Shown: piece by piece, positions 18,833 through 47,065 of the stretch
Layout: every line of letters starts with the position of its first letter
Position numbering within the stretch: the stretch's first letter is position 1
Source of the DNA: Flavicella sediminum
Lineage (GTDB): Bacteria; Bacteroidota; Bacteroidia; Flavobacteriales; Flavobacteriaceae
NCBI RefSeq assembly: GCF_006381105.1
Contig: NZ_VDET01000002.1
Coordinates: forward strand, 1 to 64,000
DNA length: 64,000 nucleotides
Reading direction: 5' to 3'
Notes under the pieces: model-generated
Database searches by the model: none
Told to the model about the DNA's origin: nothing
What the model saw: only the letters and a program-made list of their open reading frames with translations
Translations under genes and position numbers: made by a program

Positions 18833-18850
18833 ACCCAATATTACACTATA

Positions 18851-18883
18851 AAAAAAGCTTCTCAATTTTTGAGAAGCTTTTTT
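18851..18883. terminator. Bidirectional terminator between deoxynucleoside kinase and hppA
   Basis: A 15-bp perfect stem (AAAAAAGCTTCTCAA at 18851-18865 with its complement at 18869-18883) has a 3-base loop. The A/T ends give a T-run on both strands, and it lies between convergent genes. Confidence 0.92.
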
Positions 18884-18903
18884 ACTTTTGTTCGATATTT
18901 TAT

Positions 18904-30012: not shown

Positions 30013-30020
30013 GGCATAAA

Positions 30021-30056
30021 AAAAAGGAGAAATCTCTAAGAGATTTGCTCCTTTTT
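30021..30056 (+). terminator. Terminator after folA
   Basis: The stem AAAAAGGAG+AAATCTC pairs with GAGATTT+CTCCTTTTT with one bulged G and a 3-base loop. It lies 8 bp after the stop and ends in T5. Confidence 0.88.
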
Positions 30057-30332
30057 CTAAACTAAACTTAAACCAATCTTTGATAAAATAATATCATTGT
30101 AGTGAGAATTGATCGTTAGAAGTAACCACTCAACCTTCAATCAATAATCTGATATTAACATCAAATTATGTGACAAAGATACGACCGTTCCAAAGATATA
30201 TACCTCATCTTAATTGTCATATATATATGCTATTTTAACCTAGTTGATTTTTTATGACTTTATTAACGATAATATAACACAGAAAAAGACGCGATATTCA
30301 GTATATTTGCTAAGCCCTTAAGAAACAGCATT
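30057..30332. other. Non-coding region before the AraC gene
   Basis: With the terminator this makes a 320-bp gap without a gene. It is AT-rich, has no convincing ORF or RNA fold, and includes an alternating ATATATAT stretch near 30222-30229. A perfect -7 box TATATTTG (30302-30309) lies 23 bp before the AraC ATG without a TTG at the proper -33 distance, which would suit an activated promoter. Confidence 0.5.
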
Positions 30333-31205
30333 ATGAATACGACAAAACCTACTTTCAGAAAAATAGAACCCGATTTTGGAAGCTCTTTCCTGTTAAAACA
30401 CTACAAAGACTCCGTAAAAGATCGTTTTCCATTTTGGCATTTTCATCCTGAATTAGAATTGGTATATGTAAATCATGGCGGGGGAAAAAGACATATTGGA
30501 AATCATATTTCTTATTTTAAAAACAGTCAGTTGGTATTGGTTGGTTCTAATTTACCTCATATGGGGTATACCGATAGACTTACTACCAATGGAACGGAAA
30601 CTATTGTGCAAATGAAGCCCGATTTTTTGGGTGAAGCTTTTATCAACTTACCCGAAACAGACGCCATTCACAAATTATTTGAACGTGCGAAGATGGGCTT
30701 GTTGTTTCATCCTAAAATAAAAAAAGAAGTCGGTCCAAAAATAACACAATTGATTCGCTTGCAAGGAATTTCTAGATTGTTAAAATTCATTGAAATACTA
30801 CATGAACTTGCCATCACAGAAGATTACACCATGTTAAATGCGCAAGATTTTGCTGTTGAAGTATACCAACAAGACAATGATCGAGTGGATCAAATTTTTA
30901 AATACATTACTAAAAACTTCCAAAGTCATATTGCTTTAGAAGACATTGCAGAAGAGGTAAATATGACACCACCTTCCTTTTGTCGTTATTTAAAAAAGGT
31001 AACTGGGAAAACATTTACAGCTTTGGTAAATGAATATAGAATTGTACATGCGTCAAAACTATTGGCTGAAAAACCGACAAGTATTACCGATATTTGTTAC
31101 GAAAGTGGCTTTAATAATTTTTCTCATTTCAACAAATTATTTAAGAAAAAAACAGGTTGGAGTCCTTCTAACTATCGAAATGAAATGAAGAGAATTATTA
31201 CCTAA
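30333..31205 (+). CDS. AraC-family transcriptional regulator with cupin-like sensor
   Basis: The 290-aa product has an N-terminal cupin-like domain (about 10-150: FPFWHFHPELELVYVNHGGG, with His residues that could bind metal or ligand). The C-terminal AraC-type double HTH (about 190-288) includes VDQIFKYITKNFQSHIALED, SITDICYESGFNNFSHFNKL and FKKKTGWSPSNYR. Such regulators usually control sugar or sugar-acid genes. It is separated from the sugar-acid operon only by the three tandem repeats and is convergent with it, so a link is possible but not proven. It is transcribed alone. Confidence 0.88.
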   Translation: MNTTKPTFRKIEPDFGSSFLLKHYKDSVKDRFPFWHFHPELELVYVNHGGGKRHIGNHISYFKNSQLVLVGSNLPHMGYTDRLTTNGTETIVQMKPDFLGEAFINLPETDAIHKLFERAKMGLLFHPKIKKEVGPKITQLIRLQGISRLLKFIEILHELAITEDYTMLNAQDFAVEVYQQDNDRVDQIFKYITKNFQSHIALEDIAEEVNMTPPSFCRYLKKVTGKTFTALVNEYRIVHASKLLAEKPTSITDICYESGFNNFSHFNKLFKKKTGWSPSNYRNEMKRIIT

Positions 31206-31233
31206 TTCCATTTCTTTTAAAATACAACAAATC

Positions 31234-31341
31234 CAATTGAGTGCAGTTACTAATGAACTGTATACCAATAACCTTTTATGATGAAATAATTGTAAACCAA
31301 AGCATAAATCCCTAATAACCACAAAAGGAACCACTCAATTG
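31234..31341. repeat. Tandem structured element, copy 1
   Basis: It is bounded by a perfect 10-bp inverted pair CAATTGAGTG/CACTCAATTG. Inside, an inner hairpin pairs CAGTT with AACTG, where the other copies have CAATT with AATTG, a compensatory change. The right third (AACCACAAAAGGAACCACTC) is identical in all three copies. Confidence 0.85.
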
Positions 31342-31384
31342 ATCCTTGTATTTTATGTCTTTCTTTTTTTACTATTAAAATTGT

Positions 31385-31495
31385 CAATTGAGCGCAATTC
31401 AAATGAATTGTATGCCTTAAACACTTCTTATGATGAATTCATTTATTTAACCTCAGCATAAATTCCCATTAACCACAAAAGGAACCACTCAATTG
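31385..31495. repeat. Tandem structured element, copy 2
   Basis: It has the same layout as copy 1. The outer stem extends to 14 bp (AATTGTCAATTGAG with CTCAATTGACAATT). One outer pair is C opposite A on the plus strand but would be a U-G wobble in a minus-strand RNA. The inner hairpin is CAATTC/GAATTG. Confidence 0.85.
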
Positions 31496-31545
31496 ACAAT
31501 TGTTTTATTCTATAAATTTTTGTAAGTTGTACTTTTAATAATTGT

Positions 31546-31655
31546 CAAATTGAGTGCAATTCATATAAATTGTATACCAATAACCTTTTTTATGATGAAC
31601 TAATTTTTAACCTCAGCATAAATTCCTAATAACCACAAAAGGAACCACTCAATTG
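31546..31655. repeat. Tandem structured element, copy 3
   Basis: It is closest to copy 2 in its right half and to copy 1 around TATACCAATAACC. The outer stem carries one extra A (CAAATTGAGTG). The inner hairpin is CAATT/AATTG. It ends 9 bp before the stop codon of the minus-strand oxidoreductase gene. Confidence 0.85.
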
Positions 31656-31664
31656 ACAATTGTA

Positions 31665-32693
31665 TTATATTTTTATTACTTTATTTTTTTCACTCGATGC
31701 ATATACCGCATCCTGTATTCTTAAATTTTTTAAATACTCCGCTCCTTCCGTTTCAAATTCTTGTTTGTTTATAATTCCGGAAACAAAATGTCGTTGTGTT
31801 TCAAACACACAATCTCCAGAGAAATTATTTTTTGAATAGGCATAAACATATTTTTCTTCTTTAGCTCCTAATAATTGTAGGCTAATACTCCCATCGCTAT
31901 GCAACCTTATCGTTCCTTTATTCCCTTCAACAAGCATTACCCCAAAAGTTAACCTTGGATCTTCTGCTGTATTTTCGTTAAATCTATTGGCATCTAACAT
32001 ACCAAAAGCTCCTGATGAAAAATCAAAATGCACCCAAGCCAAATCTTCACCAGCTATATTTTTATTCAAATTTCTTAATCGGGCATATACACTTTCCACT
32101 TCTCCTCCTAAAAAACGAAACGTATCAATAAAATGAACACCCGTTTCATACATCAACAATTTTGACATCGTTCTAAAATAGGGCTGTCTATCTAAATACG
32201 CATCTTCAGCCCAGCCATCACCGGTTCTTAATCGAAAATTAATCGTGTGTATTTTATCGCCAATTATTCCTGTATTTATTAATTTCTTTATCTCGCGATG
32301 CCATGGCTGAAATCTAAAATTTTCATGAACCATCAATCTAACAGCTCCATCTTTAAATAAATTAACGATAGCCTCAGCTGTTTCTAAAGAACCTCCAAAA
32401 GGTTTCTGACAAATTACATGTACTTTATATTTTACCGCTAGTTTACACAATTCAAAATGTGATTCTGGAGGCGTAATGATATCTATAAAATCCGGACGCT
32501 CAGTCTTCAACATTTCTTCAACATGTGTATAACTGTTTCCTAAGGAATATTTATCAGCAGACAGCTTTGCTTTCTCTAGAGAAAAATCACAAACAGCAAC
32601 TATTTTCACATTGTCCATTCGTTGCCAAGCTTCAAAATGAAACTGGCTAAAATACCCTGAACCTATACAAACACCTTTTAATATTTTCATCAT
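31665..32693 (-). CDS. Gfo/Idh/MocA-family oxidoreductase
   Basis: The 342-aa product has an N-terminal Rossmann fold (VCIGSGYFSQFHFEAWQRM for NAD(P) binding) and the family word CQKPFGGSLETAE, in place of the common EKP motif. A C-terminal alpha/beta substrate domain follows (about 125-340). Members oxidise or reduce sugars and sugar acids. It is the last gene of the sugar-acid operon and starts directly after the MFS stop codon. The substrate is unknown, but the context points to a short or branched sugar acid. Confidence 0.85.
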   Translation of the reverse strand: MMKILKGVCIGSGYFSQFHFEAWQRMDNVKIVAVCDFSLEKAKLSADKYSLGNSYTHVEEMLKTERPDFIDIITPPESHFELCKLAVKYKVHVICQKPFGGSLETAEAIVNLFKDGAVRLMVHENFRFQPWHREIKKLINTGIIGDKIHTINFRLRTGDGWAEDAYLDRQPYFRTMSKLLMYETGVHFIDTFRFLGGEVESVYARLRNLNKNIAGEDLAWVHFDFSSGAFGMLDANRFNENTAEDPRLTFGVMLVEGNKGTIRLHSDGSISLQLLGAKEEKYVYAYSKNNFSGDCVFETQRHFVSGIINKQEFETEGAEYLKNLRIQDAVYASSEKNKVIKI

Positions 32694-33965
32694 TTAATAC
32701 ATTTTATATGATTTTTCAGGACGAACTTTTAACCATAAAAATATTGCTATTACATTAAACAAAGCTCCTAAGTAAAAAAACAATTCCACAGAACCTGTCC
32801 AACCTTGAATATAAGGAAACAACAAAGCGGTAATAAATGCACCTACATTTCCAGCCATGTTCATGGTTCCAGAAACGGCGCCCGCATGTTTTTCTCCTAT
32901 ATCTATACAAAATGCCCAAGAAGAAGGTAAGGTCATATCGGCTCCAAAAATGGCCAAACTTAAAAACAAAATAGCCCCTTCAACAGTTTCCATATGAACA
33001 CTCATTAACAAACCTATAGCTGCCAATGCAAAACCTAAAGAAGCTGGTAAAACTCTTGCTTTTTTCCATTGCCCTTTCTTATAAATAAAATCACTTAAAA
33101 ATCCAGAAAACCAATTTCCAAAAGCTCCAAAAATTAAAGGGATGGCCGCATACATTCCTGCTTCAACATTTTCTAAACCGTATTTAGATTTTACATGCGG
33201 AAACAACCAAGTAAGCGCAAAGAAAAACGTAAAATTGCTACAAAAATATTGTCCCATAGCCAGCCACATGTTTTTAGATTTCAACAATCTTTGAAAATCT
33301 AATTTTTCTCCTGGCACATCTTTGGCTTTTTGCTGTCTGTTTTCAACAATATAAGCGACTTCCTCTTTATTTAATGAGGGATGCTCTTCTGGATTGTCTC
33401 TGAAAAAAGCATACCATACAACAGCCCAAATAATTCCTATAAGTCCTAGAATAAAAAAAGTATTTTTCCATCCAAACCCATCTAATAAATAGGCTACAAG
33501 TGGCAATGAAAACGCAGCACCTAAGCGAGATCCTGAAAAATTAATTCCGGTCACCAATCCTCTTTCCGACATGGGAATCCAACTATACACCGCCCTTGAA
33601 ATACTTGGAAAAGCACCGGCTTCTCCTGCTCCAAACAAAAACCGAACAATTAATAAGGAAACAAAATTCCATACCAAACCGGTAAATGCCGTAAATACGG
33701 ACCAGATAATAACAATGGCAGAAAGTATTTTTCTTGGTCCAAATTTATCCGCTAAAATTCCACTTGGTGTTTGACACAAAGCATAGCCCAAAGCAAATAC
33801 AGAAAGTACCCAACCCATTTGTTTATCTGACAATAATAAATCTTCAGAAATAGAATCTTTAGCTACAGAAATACAAACTCTATCGATATATAATAATAAG
33901 GACAATAGGAAAGTTCCTAGAACCATGAAATATCGTCTTGGAAAAAATTTAGTGGTTTTATTCAT
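32694..33965 (-). CDS. MFS transporter, sugar-acid (ACS) type
   Basis: The 423-aa product has twelve hydrophobic segments. Loop words fit the anion:cation symporter branch of the major facilitator superfamily: YIDRVCISVAKDSI, GILADKFGPRK, RFLFGAGEAGAFPSISR. That branch includes hexuronate and tartrate carriers. It sits in the inner membrane and would bring the operon's substrate into the cell. It overlaps the kinase gene by 8 bp, so it is part of the same operon. Confidence 0.88.
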   Translation of the reverse strand: MNKTTKFFPRRYFMVLGTFLLSLLLYIDRVCISVAKDSISEDLLLSDKQMGWVLSVFALGYALCQTPSGILADKFGPRKILSAIVIIWSVFTAFTGLVWNFVSLLIVRFLFGAGEAGAFPSISRAVYSWIPMSERGLVTGINFSGSRLGAAFSLPLVAYLLDGFGWKNTFFILGLIGIIWAVVWYAFFRDNPEEHPSLNKEEVAYIVENRQQKAKDVPGEKLDFQRLLKSKNMWLAMGQYFCSNFTFFFALTWLFPHVKSKYGLENVEAGMYAAIPLIFGAFGNWFSGFLSDFIYKKGQWKKARVLPASLGFALAAIGLLMSVHMETVEGAILFLSLAIFGADMTLPSSWAFCIDIGEKHAGAVSGTMNMAGNVGAFITALLFPYIQGWTGSVELFFYLGALFNVIAIFLWLKVRPEKSYKMY

Positions 33966-35352
33966 TGTTTAGTTTAGTTAGTATATGGGCAAGGGCATCA
34001 TTATCTCCCACATTTCCTGGGAAAATAATATAAGGCACCTTTGGAAATTTTGTTTCTTCTCCTAGCTTCCAAACGGGAACGCCAGGAATAATTTGTCCTT
34101 CAACAAATGCTTTTTTAACCCCCAAAGCTTTTACAGCAATATCACTTGAAGTAATCCCTCCTTTGGCTAAAATATATTTCGGACAGGTTTGCAATCCTTT
34201 TACAATACGGATCAAGCTAGAAGAAACTTGGTTTACAATTTTCAAACTTTCTACGCCATCAATTCCTGTTTTAACAAGTCGTGATGTGTAAATAACCACT
34301 TCTTTTCCTGCTCCTAAATTTGCATCTATAAAATGGATTGCTTTATTTATTTCAATCTGTTGTTCTTCTTTTTGCAGTAGTTTAGTTACTTCTACTTCAT
34401 AAAAAGCATACGATTTGTTTTCTTTTAATTTCGTTAATTGTGCTGTTGTTTTAGGAACATAAGAACCTACAATTGTTAAACCTCCAATTCCTGTACTTAT
34501 CAATTCTGACTTTTCAAGGAGTTCTTTTTTTTCAATATTCGCAATAGCATTTACAAAGGAAGCCGAACATCTAATAACTGCTGGCAAAGCAGATTGTAAA
34601 AAGCCCAAAGCAAACGATTGTAAATCTTCATAACAGGTTGCATTCACCACATAAAACTTGTCAGCTTTATTGACTAATAAAGTTTTACAAACTTGCACGG
34701 GACCTTGTTTTCTAAGAACATCTAAAGAAAAACTTTGAACCGCTTCCGCTTTAACCAATCCTCCTGTTTTCTCTGAAATCCATTCTTTTAGATTGGAAGC
34801 AGTATATCCAAAAGTTGCATCCTTAGCAAAAGGACTTTCTCCTACGGGAAAAAATACGCCATCCTGCTCCATATAATGCACATCATTCACAGTCACTCTT
34901 CCTCCTTCAAAAAACGCAGGAATTAAAAATTGTTTGCAATTATCAAGCCCTAAACCGTTTTCCAAGGCACTTGTTTCTGCTTGATAATGTCCTCGTAAGG
35001 TAGAATCTCCCCTACTTAAAATTATGGTACTTTTGTTATATTTCGATGCCGATTTCCCTACTCGATCAGCGATTGTTTTAGCAACTTCATAGGCTTTATT
35101 TTCCTGAAAGCTTCTAGAATTAGTCAAAATAAAAAACACTCTTGTACCACTTTCAAATTCGCCATCTAAAGTTTCCTGCTCCCAATCGGTAAGCACTGAA
35201 ACTCCATGTACTGTTTGCGTACCTGTCGGATCATCATCCAACACAACAATAACGGGTTTGCTTTTAGACAAGCATTCGGCAATCTCTTCCTTATAACTTT
35301 TTTGCTTGTCTGAATTATAAACAGCCAATTTTATGTCTATTTGTTCAGTCAT
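33958..35352 (-). CDS. Four-carbon acid sugar kinase (DUF1537, OtnK/DtnK-like)
   Basis: The product is 464 aa from the ATG at 35352 (MTEQIDIKLAVYN), 1 bp after the cyclase stop. A TTG 12 bp upstream would overlap that gene and is less likely. The N-terminal part has the family signature VVLDDDPTGTQTVHGVSV and the substrate motif LSRGDSTLRGHY. The C-terminal ATP-binding part has YILAKGGITSSDIAV and GNVGDNDAL. Known members phosphorylate D-threonate, L-threonate or D-erythronate at O-4. No PdxA2, OtnC or OtnI partner is in the operon, so the substrate here may differ. Confidence 0.87.
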   Translation of the reverse strand: MTEQIDIKLAVYNSDKQKSYKEEIAECLSKSKPVIVVLDDDPTGTQTVHGVSVLTDWEQETLDGEFESGTRVFFILTNSRSFQENKAYEVAKTIADRVGKSASKYNKSTIILSRGDSTLRGHYQAETSALENGLGLDNCKQFLIPAFFEGGRVTVNDVHYMEQDGVFFPVGESPFAKDATFGYTASNLKEWISEKTGGLVKAEAVQSFSLDVLRKQGPVQVCKTLLVNKADKFYVVNATCYEDLQSFALGFLQSALPAVIRCSASFVNAIANIEKKELLEKSELISTGIGGLTIVGSYVPKTTAQLTKLKENKSYAFYEVEVTKLLQKEEQQIEINKAIHFIDANLGAGKEVVIYTSRLVKTGIDGVESLKIVNQVSSSLIRIVKGLQTCPKYILAKGGITSSDIAVKALGVKKAFVEGQIIPGVPVWKLGEETKFPKVPYIIFPGNVGDNDALAHILTKLNNE

Positions 35353-35353
35353 T

Positions 35354-36001
35354 TTATCTTTCAATCGCTATAATTCTTGCCGGAGAACCATCACCTTTTT
35401 TTACTTTTAAAGGAAGCGCTATCAAACTTACTGAGGCCGATTTAATTTTATCTAAATTCACCAAACCTTCTACAATAATGATATTCCCTTTCATTAAAAT
35501 TTCATGAATCAAGGTGACTTCTTCTATTGAGTTTACATCGGCTACAGAAGGTGGTTCTACACCAATCATGTTAATTTTCTTAGCAACACACCATTCAGCA
35601 AATTCTTGACTCAACCTTGGCAATTCGTTTCGATACAAATCCGTTCCAAAAAACTGACTCCAACCTGTTTTTAACAACAGGCTGTCACCGTCTTTTACTT
35701 TTTCAGCAATTTTCCCTAAATCATTTATAGAAATCAAACCTTTCGATTTGATATGAGATAGATCGACCAACCAGGCTTTAGAAATTAATCTATCTACAGG
35801 AATTTCATCAATTGTTTGGCTGCTCACATTAAAATGCAAAGGAGCATCCATGTGTGTTCCAATATGAGAATACAGTTGCAATGTTGAAGCATTCCAACCA
35901 TCTTCTTCCATAGATTTTGCAACACTAATCGTCACCCCAGGATCACCATTTGAAATGCTGCGTGTTAAATCGATAATTTTATTTCCTGTATCTATTTGCA
36001 T
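35354..36001 (-). CDS. Cyclase-family metal hydrolase (kynurenine formamidase-like)
   Basis: The 215-aa product has the metal-binding motif HIGTHMDAPLHF (near residues 46-57) and the N-terminal DLTRSISNGDPG of the SCL/cyclase family, which includes bacterial KynB. A role in tryptophan breakdown is unlikely here, because no other kyn gene is near. The operon context suggests hydrolysis of a lactone or similar form of a sugar acid. It lies 1 bp after the dehydrogenase gene. The reaction is inference. Confidence 0.82.
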   Translation of the reverse strand: MQIDTGNKIIDLTRSISNGDPGVTISVAKSMEEDGWNASTLQLYSHIGTHMDAPLHFNVSSQTIDEIPVDRLISKAWLVDLSHIKSKGLISINDLGKIAEKVKDGDSLLLKTGWSQFFGTDLYRNELPRLSQEFAEWCVAKKINMIGVEPPSVADVNSIEEVTLIHEILMKGNIIIVEGLVNLDKIKSASVSLIALPLKVKKGDGSPARIIAIER

Positions 36002-36002
36002 T

Positions 36003-37070
36003 TTATTTTTTAGCGTTTAAGGCTTCTAATACATTGTTCATAATATCGGTTGTACTTGCAGTACCTCCTAAATCTTTCGTAAATTCTCCTTTAGAAGTTG
36101 CTTTACCTATGGCTTCCATAATTGCTTTTGAAGCCTCCAATTCGCCAATATGTTCCAACATAATCGCTCCTGACCAAATTTGTCCAATTGGATTTGCAAT
36201 ATTTTGTCCAGCAATATCTGGTGCCGAACCATGTATAGGTTCAAACATAGATGGGAATTCGTTTTCGGGATTGATATTTCCACTTCCTCCTAAACCTAAA
36301 CTTCCCATAATAGCACCTCCTAAATCTGATAAAATATCTCCAATTAGATTTGTCGTTACAATTACATCAAAAACTTCTGGTTTTAAAACAAAACTTGCAG
36401 AAGCATTATCTACATACATTTTATCATAGGCTACATCTGGGTATTGTTCAGCAACTTCTGCAATAACCTGATCCCAATATTTTAAACTATGTATTAAGGT
36501 ATTTGACTTAGTTACATTGGTCACCTTCTTTCTTCTTTTTTGCGCTAATTTAAACGAATAATGTGCAATACGCTCAATACCATGTCGAGTAAATATACTG
36601 GTATCAATTGCCATTCCTCCTGGTTTATCAGCATGCATTATTTTTCCGCTTTGTACAAATTCACCTTCGTTATTTTCTCTTACAACAACAAAATCAATGT
36701 CTTTTTCTGTTTTATATCTTAACGGACTTTCAACACCTGCAAATAATTTTACCGGGCGGTAATTTACATATTGTTCAAATGCTGTTCTAACTTTAAACGT
36801 ATAATCTCTTGCTGGCAAAGTATCATCTACTTCTGGCAAGCCAACGGCTCCAAAAAAGATGGCATCAAACCTTTTCAAATCTTCCAAAGCATTGTCTGCC
36901 ATAAACTGACCATGCTCTTTGTAGTAACCAGCACCATATGGAAACTCTTCTGTCGCTATTTCGAACCCAAACTTTTTAGCAGCCGCATGTACAACTGCCA
37001 TTCCAGCAGGTACAATTTCTCTTCCTATCCCATCTCCATTTACAACTGCAATACTGTACTTTTTACCCAT
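36003..37070 (-). CDS. Tartrate/D-malate-type decarboxylating dehydrogenase (TtuC-like)
   Basis: The 355-aa product belongs to the isocitrate/isopropylmalate dehydrogenase family. It has NGDGIGREIVPAG, the substrate-binding FVVVRENNEGEF, the catalytic Lys in VTNVTKSNTLIHSL, and the Asp set in NLIGDILSDLGGA. The pattern GRE plus RENNEGE is close to tartrate dehydrogenase/decarboxylase and D-malate dehydrogenase. It uses NAD+ and a divalent metal in the cytoplasm. It is the first gene of the operon and divergent from lacI. The exact substrate is open: tartrate, malate or a C4 acid from the neighbouring enzymes. Confidence 0.87.
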   Translation of the reverse strand: MGKKYSIAVVNGDGIGREIVPAGMAVVHAAAKKFGFEIATEEFPYGAGYYKEHGQFMADNALEDLKRFDAIFFGAVGLPEVDDTLPARDYTFKVRTAFEQYVNYRPVKLFAGVESPLRYKTEKDIDFVVVRENNEGEFVQSGKIMHADKPGGMAIDTSIFTRHGIERIAHYSFKLAQKRRKKVTNVTKSNTLIHSLKYWDQVIAEVAEQYPDVAYDKMYVDNASASFVLKPEVFDVIVTTNLIGDILSDLGGAIMGSLGLGGSGNINPENEFPSMFEPIHGSAPDIAGQNIANPIGQIWSGAIMLEHIGELEASKAIMEAIGKATSKGEFTKDLGGTASTTDIMNNVLEALNAKK

Positions 37071-37110
37071 CTTTCTAGAAATTTAATATAATTTTTATTT
37101 TAAAATATTT

Positions 37111-37127
37111 TGCGCAATTATTTGCAC
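37111..37127. promoter_or_regulatory. LacI-type operator 1
   Basis: TGCGCAATTATTTGCAC is a near copy (15 of 17) of the site at 37204-37220 and has a partial TGC...GCA dyad. It lies 41 bp before the dehydrogenase ATG, just upstream of a weak -7 box (TAAATTTC on the minus strand, 37078-37085). Confidence 0.75.
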
Positions 37128-37203
37128 TGTGATTTTATTAATTTATTGTTCTACAATATTAATGATAAAATTAGATTAAAAAAATGCTTCGATTCAAGTT
37201 TAA

Positions 37204-37245
37204 TGCGCAATGTTTTGCACAACTCAAAGTTCTGTATTAAATTTG
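37204..37245 (+). promoter_or_regulatory. lacI promoter with overlapping operator 2
   Basis: The promoter is TTG (37215-37217), a 20-bp spacer and TAAATTTG (37238-37245), 13 bp before the ATG. Operator TGCGCAATGTTTTGCAC (37204-37220) covers the -33 element, so the regulator probably represses its own gene. The two operators are 93 bp apart centre to centre, which would allow looping over both promoters. Confidence 0.75.
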
Positions 37246-37258
37246 GAAAAATATTATT

Positions 37259-38275
37259 ATGAAAAAAACGACTCTTAAAGACATCGCAATCAAACTGCAA
37301 GTTTCGGTTTCAACCGTTTCTAGAGCTTTACAAAATAATCCTAGAATTAGTAAAGAAATTCGTGACTTAGTTTTACAAACAGCGAAAGAATTGAATTATT
37401 TTGCGAATAAAAACTTTGATTTTACTGGCTTAAAAAAAATGAATGCCATAGGGGTTATCGTTCCAAAAATAAGTTATCACTTATATGCAATGGCCATTAG
37501 TGGTATCGAAAAAATTGCTGAGGACAATAATATGAAAATCATTATATGCCAATCTAACGAATCTTATGAAAGAGAAAAAGGCTTGGTAAAGGAACTTATA
37601 GAAATTGGAATTGCTGGATTAATTGTCTCTCATGCCAGTCAGACTAAAAATTTTTCACATTTTCAAGAAGCGAAAGATCACAACATTCCGCTTGTATTTT
37701 TTAACCGATTGTGCGACGAAGTTGAAAGTGATAAAGTTGTGTTAGACAACTTTAGAGCCGCTTATGATGCGACGCAGCATTTGATAGAAATAGGTTGCCA
37801 AAAAATTGCTTATATCGGTGGCCCAGAAATTTTGCAAATTAGCAACACACGCTTGTTAGGCTATAAAAAAGCACTTGCCGACAGCAATTTTTCCTTAAAT
37901 GAAAAACTGATAGACTACTGTAATTTCAATCGAGAAAGTCATTTAACCCTTGCTAGAAAACTGCTTTACGCACCAACACACCCCGATGGAATTTTATGTT
38001 TTAGCGATCAAATTGCTATTTCTGTAATGTTGGCCGCCAAAGAAAGAGGTATAAAAATACCTGAAGATTTATCGATTATAGGATTTAACAATGAACCTAT
38101 TGATGAATTATTAGACCCAACCTTAACAAGTGTAGATCAACCTGATTACGAAATGGGTCTTGCCTCCGCACAATTCATCATCAATAGAATAAAAAACCAT
38201 CAAATAAAAAACACTAGAAAAATATTAAAGTCGAATTTAATTATTAGAAATTCTACTAACAGAAACAAACGCTAA
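37259..38275 (+). CDS. LacI-family transcriptional regulator
   Basis: The 338-aa product has an N-terminal LacI HTH (TLKDIAIKLQVSVSTVSRAL, about 4-23, with the hinge near 50) and a periplasmic-binding-protein-like effector domain (NAIGVIVPKISYHLYAMAIS, GLIVSHASQTKN, IAYIGGPEILQISNTRL). It is divergent from the sugar-acid operon and has two matching operators in the shared intergenic region, so it almost certainly controls that operon and itself. The effector is probably the imported acid or an intermediate. Its stop codon abuts that of pxpC with no gap. Confidence 0.92.
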   Translation: MKKTTLKDIAIKLQVSVSTVSRALQNNPRISKEIRDLVLQTAKELNYFANKNFDFTGLKKMNAIGVIVPKISYHLYAMAISGIEKIAEDNNMKIIICQSNESYEREKGLVKELIEIGIAGLIVSHASQTKNFSHFQEAKDHNIPLVFFNRLCDEVESDKVVLDNFRAAYDATQHLIEIGCQKIAYIGGPEILQISNTRLLGYKKALADSNFSLNEKLIDYCNFNRESHLTLARKLLYAPTHPDGILCFSDQIAISVMLAAKERGIKIPEDLSIIGFNNEPIDELLDPTLTSVDQPDYEMGLASAQFIINRIKNHQIKNTRKILKSNLIIRNSTNRNKR

Positions 38276-46997: not shown

Positions 46998-47016
46998 AAA
47001 GGAAACTTAAGCAACA

Positions 47017-47050
47017 AAAAAAGGCACTCTAAATTGAGTGCCTTTTTTTA
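47017..47050. terminator. Bidirectional terminator between the OmpA gene and gldC
   Basis: A 14-bp stem (47017-47030 with 47037-47050, core GGCACTC/GAGTGCC with A7/T7) has a 6-base loop between convergent genes. Confidence 0.93.
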
Positions 47051-47065
47051 TTTCAACTATTTTTA

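Follow-up and report, generated by a model that had tools for sequence, protein, structure and literature searches.

Three tandem structured units beside a catabolic operon in Flavicella sediminum and a sister species

A gap between two convergent genes of Flavicella sediminum holds three tandem copies of a unit of about 110 bp, and the question is whether these copies encode an RNA, form an element of the DNA itself or simply mark a place where transcription ends. We analysed them within a window of 64,000 nt (positions 1 to 64,000 of contig NZ_VDET01000002.1) and compared the locus across the genus. The array is a real, structured and lineage-restricted tandem element, and it fits no known family. 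Our preferred reading, to which we give a probability of roughly 45%, is that the three tandem units are structured RNA modules, specific to the lineage and carried on the minus strand, that form the 3' tail of a five-gene operon; we infer both the transcription and the function.

Location and copy number of the array

The array takes up most of a 459-bp gap (31206-31664) between an AraC-family gene and the last gene of an operon (37070-31665) made up of isocitrate/isopropylmalate-dehydrogenase-type, cyclase, four-carbon acid-sugar-kinase-type, MFS and Gfo/Idh genes. The features at the locus are as follows.

30333-31205, plus strand: AraC-family regulator, the convergent neighbour upstream of the array
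31234-31341, minus strand: core of unit 1, with a closing stem that reaches 31219-31227 and 31346-31354
31314-31341, plus strand: right block of unit 1, with the core TAACCACAAAAGGAACCACTCAATTG, identical in all three units
31385-31495, minus strand: core of unit 2, with a closing stem that reaches about 31379 and 31502
31546-31655, minus strand: core of unit 3, with a closing stem that reaches about 31538 and 31663
31665-32693, minus strand: Gfo/Idh/MocA oxidoreductase, last gene of the operon 37070-31665

A sequence-only reading of the window had described three copies at these positions with a right block, TAACCACAAAAGGAACCACTCAATTGA, that is the same in all of them, and we confirmed both points. 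Pairwise identity among the units is 80-87%, and Tandem Repeats Finder reports the array with a period of 160, 2.8 copies and a score of 521. Over about 1.7 Mb of the main contig the same program found few arrays with a period of at least 50, mostly noncoding.

No copy of the unit turned up outside the locus in the whole 4.58-Mb genome when we searched with BLAST and a covariance model; these three are the only ones. The plasmids and phages that we searched gave no match to the array, and BLASTN against 397 genomes of the family returned only weak, single short fragments, which were chance-like or coding where we inspected them. The units resemble the structured RNAs of Rfam in being domains of about 110 nt in which pairing is kept through sequence change, but none of the 4227 families of Rfam 15 reached its gathering score in the array of either species.

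Several smaller leads were followed and dropped. An exact 18-mer, AACCACAAAAGGAACCAC, has 23 matches in 84,980 species genomes, none with flanks that resemble a unit, and many of them read as TonB/carboxypeptidase-type coding sequence (KGTTKGTT); its four matches in viral contigs are likewise unlike the unit in their flanks. Small ORFs in the units do not hold up, as no frame is open at the same register in all three and indels of 1-2 nt shift the frames. A likeness to C/D-box snoRNAs (AUGAUGA) is at chance level, and the words common to the units and the operon promoter region are only AT-rich 9- and 10-mers.

Pairing in the window and in the sister species

Each copy is closed by an inverted repeat, as had been noticed before, but the real stem runs beyond the limits first given for it. 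In copy 1, AAAATACAA (31219-31227) pairs with TTGTATTTT (31346-31354), and in copies 2 and 3 ATTGTC pairs with GACAAT; this outer segment of copy 1 is unlike that of copies 2 and 3 in its letters, with the pairing retained. The left arm of copy 3 has one extra A (CAAATTGAGTG), which corrects the earlier description. None of 2000 dinucleotide shuffles paired as well as the closing-stem arms, in every copy and on either strand, and whichever strand is folded, the whole units also do better than shuffles, with z about -2.5 to -3.4. Because the window units fold on both strands, the F. sediminum genome alone does not settle the strand.

Folded as the minus strand, copies 2 and 3 form a multi-branched domain with an outer stem (P1), a stem P2 (GUUCCU/AGGAAU) whose loop carries UGUGGUUA, the minus-strand reading of the right block, and a stem P3 (UUAUG/CAUAA). 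A further stem, P4 (CAAUU/AAUUG), is clearest in copies 1 and 2. The paired change reported for the inner stem is there: copy 1 reads CAGTT/AACTG where copies 2 and 3 read CAATT/AATTG, the one double change (A-U to G-C, in P4) among the three copies. So is the change of a T-A pair to T-G in copy 2, a wobble when read as the minus strand but C-A when read as the plus strand. In all, four stem changes among the window copies affect a single side, every one of them a wobble pair on the minus strand only, and two pairs are broken in copy 1. This covariation does not rise above a shuffle control (165/500), and taken alone it is weak. Variation is lower in paired than in unpaired columns (9/62 vs 14/47), although this is not significant (p = 0.06).

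The comparison within the genus covered six genomes, including that of the window. The AraC gene is present in all six (79-87% identity), and the Gfo/Idh cluster adjoins it only in F. sediminum and in one sister species (G003). Two genomes (G001 and G005) have a secD-like gene after AraC and no array, and two others (G002 and G004) have a convergent gene there, which by eye appears to be pxpC, and again no array. In the window, 31665-38275 holds the catabolic cluster plus a LacI-type regulator and lies between araC and pxp-type genes. The cluster seems to have been gained or lost as a block, because araC directly adjoins the convergent pxpC-like gene in G002 and G004.

In G003, the gap between AraC and Gfo/Idh also contains three tandem units, here of about 115 bp (L064 2149-2500), each closed by an inverted repeat of its own. 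Units B and C have an identical core of 53 nt, whereas the stems of about 25 bp that flank it are almost wholly different in sequence. Seventeen stem pairs stand at the same position in B and C; nine of them changed on both sides, five changed on one side and three are the same, a count that leans towards pairing because the pairs were taken from minimum-energy folds. The pairing energies of the arms are independent of those folds. With their own partners the arms of B and C reach -22.6 and -26.5 kcal/mol, against -10.4 or weaker with the arms of the other G003 units, and the own-partner pairing was matched by 3 and 0 of 2000 shuffles. Both units fold well as the minus strand only (z -3.8 and -3.6, against -1.3 and -1.9 on the plus strand), which is the asymmetry expected of an RNA and not of a DNA palindrome. 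In unit A the pairing is good whichever strand is taken, and the plus strand gives the better fold (z -3.2 vs -1.8). The GC skew of the G003 gap tracks the minus-strand gene.

The two arrays are alike in gene order, orientation, unit number and unit size. The closing stem of G003 unit A has AATT-GAGTG / GCACTC-AATT in common with the window units, and TGTGGTTATT occurs in both arrays. An alignment of unit A with copies 1 and 3 beats 498 of 500 shuffles, and one of the whole gaps beats 392 of 400. The longest direct repeat is 33-34 nt in the window gap and 53 nt in the G003 gap; downstream of 29 other Gfo/Idh and 26 other AraC homologs in the family we found no long direct repeats (at most 12 nt), and other Gfo/Idh operons of the family are without such an array. 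Weak matches to the G003 array elsewhere were coding sequence or chance-like where checked. We consider it probable, on the basis of position and architecture, that the two arrays are homologous; sequence support for this is weak.

The sequence-only reading had proposed a structured element favouring a minus-strand RNA, to be followed up through homologous copies with preserved pairing in other genomes. Such paired homologues probably exist, as the G003 array has the same position and strong private pairing, although the covariance model of the window units, which was run on their own genome and on the G003 locus, gave no significant match at the latter. The preference for the minus strand comes mainly from the G003 array, since the window units alone fold on both strands; support for a minus-strand RNA structure is good from the sister species and modest inside the window.

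What the array may do

On our preferred reading, the operon transcript would read through into the array. Readthrough is the simplest source of RNA because the coding part of the operon ends about 10 nt before unit 3 begins, and the gap has no promoter box of its own. Each module would be a domain closed by a long stem around inner hairpins and the UGUGGUUA motif, and in G003 every closing stem is private to its own unit. The modules may act as a structured 3' end, which would be a strong barrier against 3' exonucleases and against AraC transcription coming from the other side; they may also be processed into stable fragments, and the common motif may be bound by a protein or RNA partner. The inner core of the G003 units, together with the UGUGGUUA motif in both species, suggests such a partner. 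Within one genome the stems diverge almost completely and the core is identical to the letter, a natural experiment that tells letters which need only pair from letters which need to be read. A more specific version seems doubtful to us: here the array would be an undescribed kind of operon tail made of self-insulating modules, in which private stems prevent mispairing and a core that is uniform within the species binds a partner and sets the fate of the operon mRNA.

To our knowledge, the structured 3' UTR elements of Bacteroidota are little charted. The array provides a defined locus, in a sugar-acid-type operon, at which to look at effects of 3' structure on convergent flavobacterial transcripts. 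Its known carriers are two species, and this range narrows the reach of the finding.

The strongest of the alternatives, which we still think unlikely, is a two-way barrier, with palindromic stems that fold in both transcripts, end or shorten those that run on from AraC or from the operon, and have no further specific role. The genes on the two sides of the gap converge, the closing stems can pair on either strand, and two other convergent gaps of the window (18833-18903 and 46998-47065) carry compact hairpins with good folds on each strand. The array shares its place with structured 3' UTRs and the bidirectional terminators of convergent genes: it directly follows the last stop codon of an operon and has a convergent gene on its far side. 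Like them, it has stable stems. However, about 70 nt suffices in the ordinary convergent gaps here, and three diverged domains of about 110 nt far exceed that need. Their architecture is also different, being three large branched domains with a conserved core instead of a compact hairpin followed by a T-run, and loops of about 90 nt are not intrinsic terminators. It had been said that no T-run marks the copies as plain terminators. On the plus strand, copies 1 and 3 are in fact each followed by a T-rich tract, but the units contain no classic terminator (a compact GC stem-loop and then a T-run), and the lack of an ordinary terminator is itself in keeping with a two-way barrier. Against a barrier with no specific role, the 53-nt identical core of two G003 units suggests a sequence-specific one, and the same two units fold poorly on the plus strand.

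We give less credit to an inverted-repeat element that acts as DNA (MITE-like, REP/BIME-like or a recombination hairpin) and multiplied locally by tandem duplication. MITEs are elements of about 100-300 bp with terminal inverted repeats, and the array shares with them and with REP/BIME elements that it is intergenic, palindromic and repeated. Every unit has long terminal inverted repeats, the window units fold on both strands, and the array sits at the junction of a catabolic cluster that two species have and four lack. Unlike these elements, the array has no dispersed copies: the sampled family genomes, the plasmids, the phages and the rest of the genome hold no further one, and with just three copies at a single locus the REP/BIME reading that had been suggested is not supported. 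The terminal inverted repeats are common to window copies 2 and 3 and partly to copy 1, but not among the G003 units, where they all differ while the cores of two units are identical, the reverse of what the ends of a transposable element would show. Two G003 units also fold on the minus strand only.

A nearby gene brings in a reading that we consider very unlikely, namely that the array is a sponge or decoy for a small RNA.

30018-30168 (wider limits 30013-30181), minus strand: sRNA-like gene in the folA-araC gap, conserved in 6/6 genus genomes

In each of the six genomes this gene has a TATCTTTG promoter box and an intrinsic terminator, and it contains GAGTGGTTAC and TGGTTTAAGTTTAGTT without variation. 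The array would repeat its invariant GAGUGGUUAC-type motif on the minus strand, or the complement on the plus strand. The gene and all three units have TTGAGTGGTT in common, and GTGGTTA is common to the units of both species. The minus strand of the gap has GTGGTT 6 times where 0.12 would be expected, counted over repeated units that are not independent. Pairing between the sRNA core and a plus-strand array transcript is stronger than in 295 of 300 shuffles (5/300 were as good), but in G003 there is no excess complementarity, with 200 of 300 shuffles as good, so the relation is only a lead. The motif match was also spotted post hoc, the units give no match to the sRNA model, and four genomes have the sRNA without the array. 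From its sequence the gene is a possible partner of the array. Neither Rfam nor 378 genomes of the family beyond the genus gave a convincing match to it, and the 12 matches of the sRNA model (R3) that we inspected outside the genus lack the invariant motifs and appear to be driven by the terminator.

Least probable is that the array is a row of three separate small-RNA genes, in which every unit starts and ends by itself. In favour of this, tandem sRNA-like genes exist in the same genome (C12:650 kb), and sugar uptake in Bacteroides is under the control of multicopy sRNAs (FopS, PMC11697453). However, the gap has no Bacteroidota promoter box (TAnnTTTG) on either strand (near-matches only) and the units have no intrinsic terminator, which makes such genes improbable and leaves the suggested small-RNA family unsupported; in the C12 array, by contrast, most copies have the box and the readable ones a terminator hairpin.

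The FopS sRNAs are multicopy, with promoters, an exposed seed and terminators (PMC11697453). They occur in many copies, mostly scattered, have a seed that is single-stranded at the 5' end and finish in a Rho-independent terminator; one is derived from a 3' UTR (PMC11697453). The array is like FopS/GibS of Bacteroides thetaiotaomicron (PMC11697453) in that several paralogous noncoding units occur per genome within the phylum Bacteroidota, and unlike FopS it consists of three tandem copies at one locus that form closed domains without promoter box or terminator.

Other small-RNA-like genes and repeats

The tandem genes at C12 (about 650.4-651.6 kb; L189 6420-7560) form about five units of about 252 bp just upstream of a mutS-like gene. 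Each has a TATCTTTG-type promoter box (TATCTTAG in one copy) and a terminator hairpin where this is not masked, and on these features the array looks like tandem sRNA genes. It has a single counterpart in the sister species (G003:C21:41675) and no Rfam match. It is a member of a multicopy sRNA-like family (L242-L252) found in all six genus genomes, in which an invariant TTTTTCATAGCAATTTTCC is preceded by a variable 5' hairpin and followed by a terminator hairpin. TTTTTCATAGCAATTTTCC is complementary to GGAAAATTGCTATGAAAAA, a sequence that looks like a translation start region (ATGAAAAA).

Two further repeats came up. A noncoding tandem array at C12 1173694-1174436 (L215 9694-10436), with about 2.7 copies of a 280-bp unit, adjoins a TonB/SusC-like gene. 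Within the window, 1551-1694 is a GCAACAACA-rich tandem repeat with periods of 9, 23, 32 and 55, outside long ORFs.
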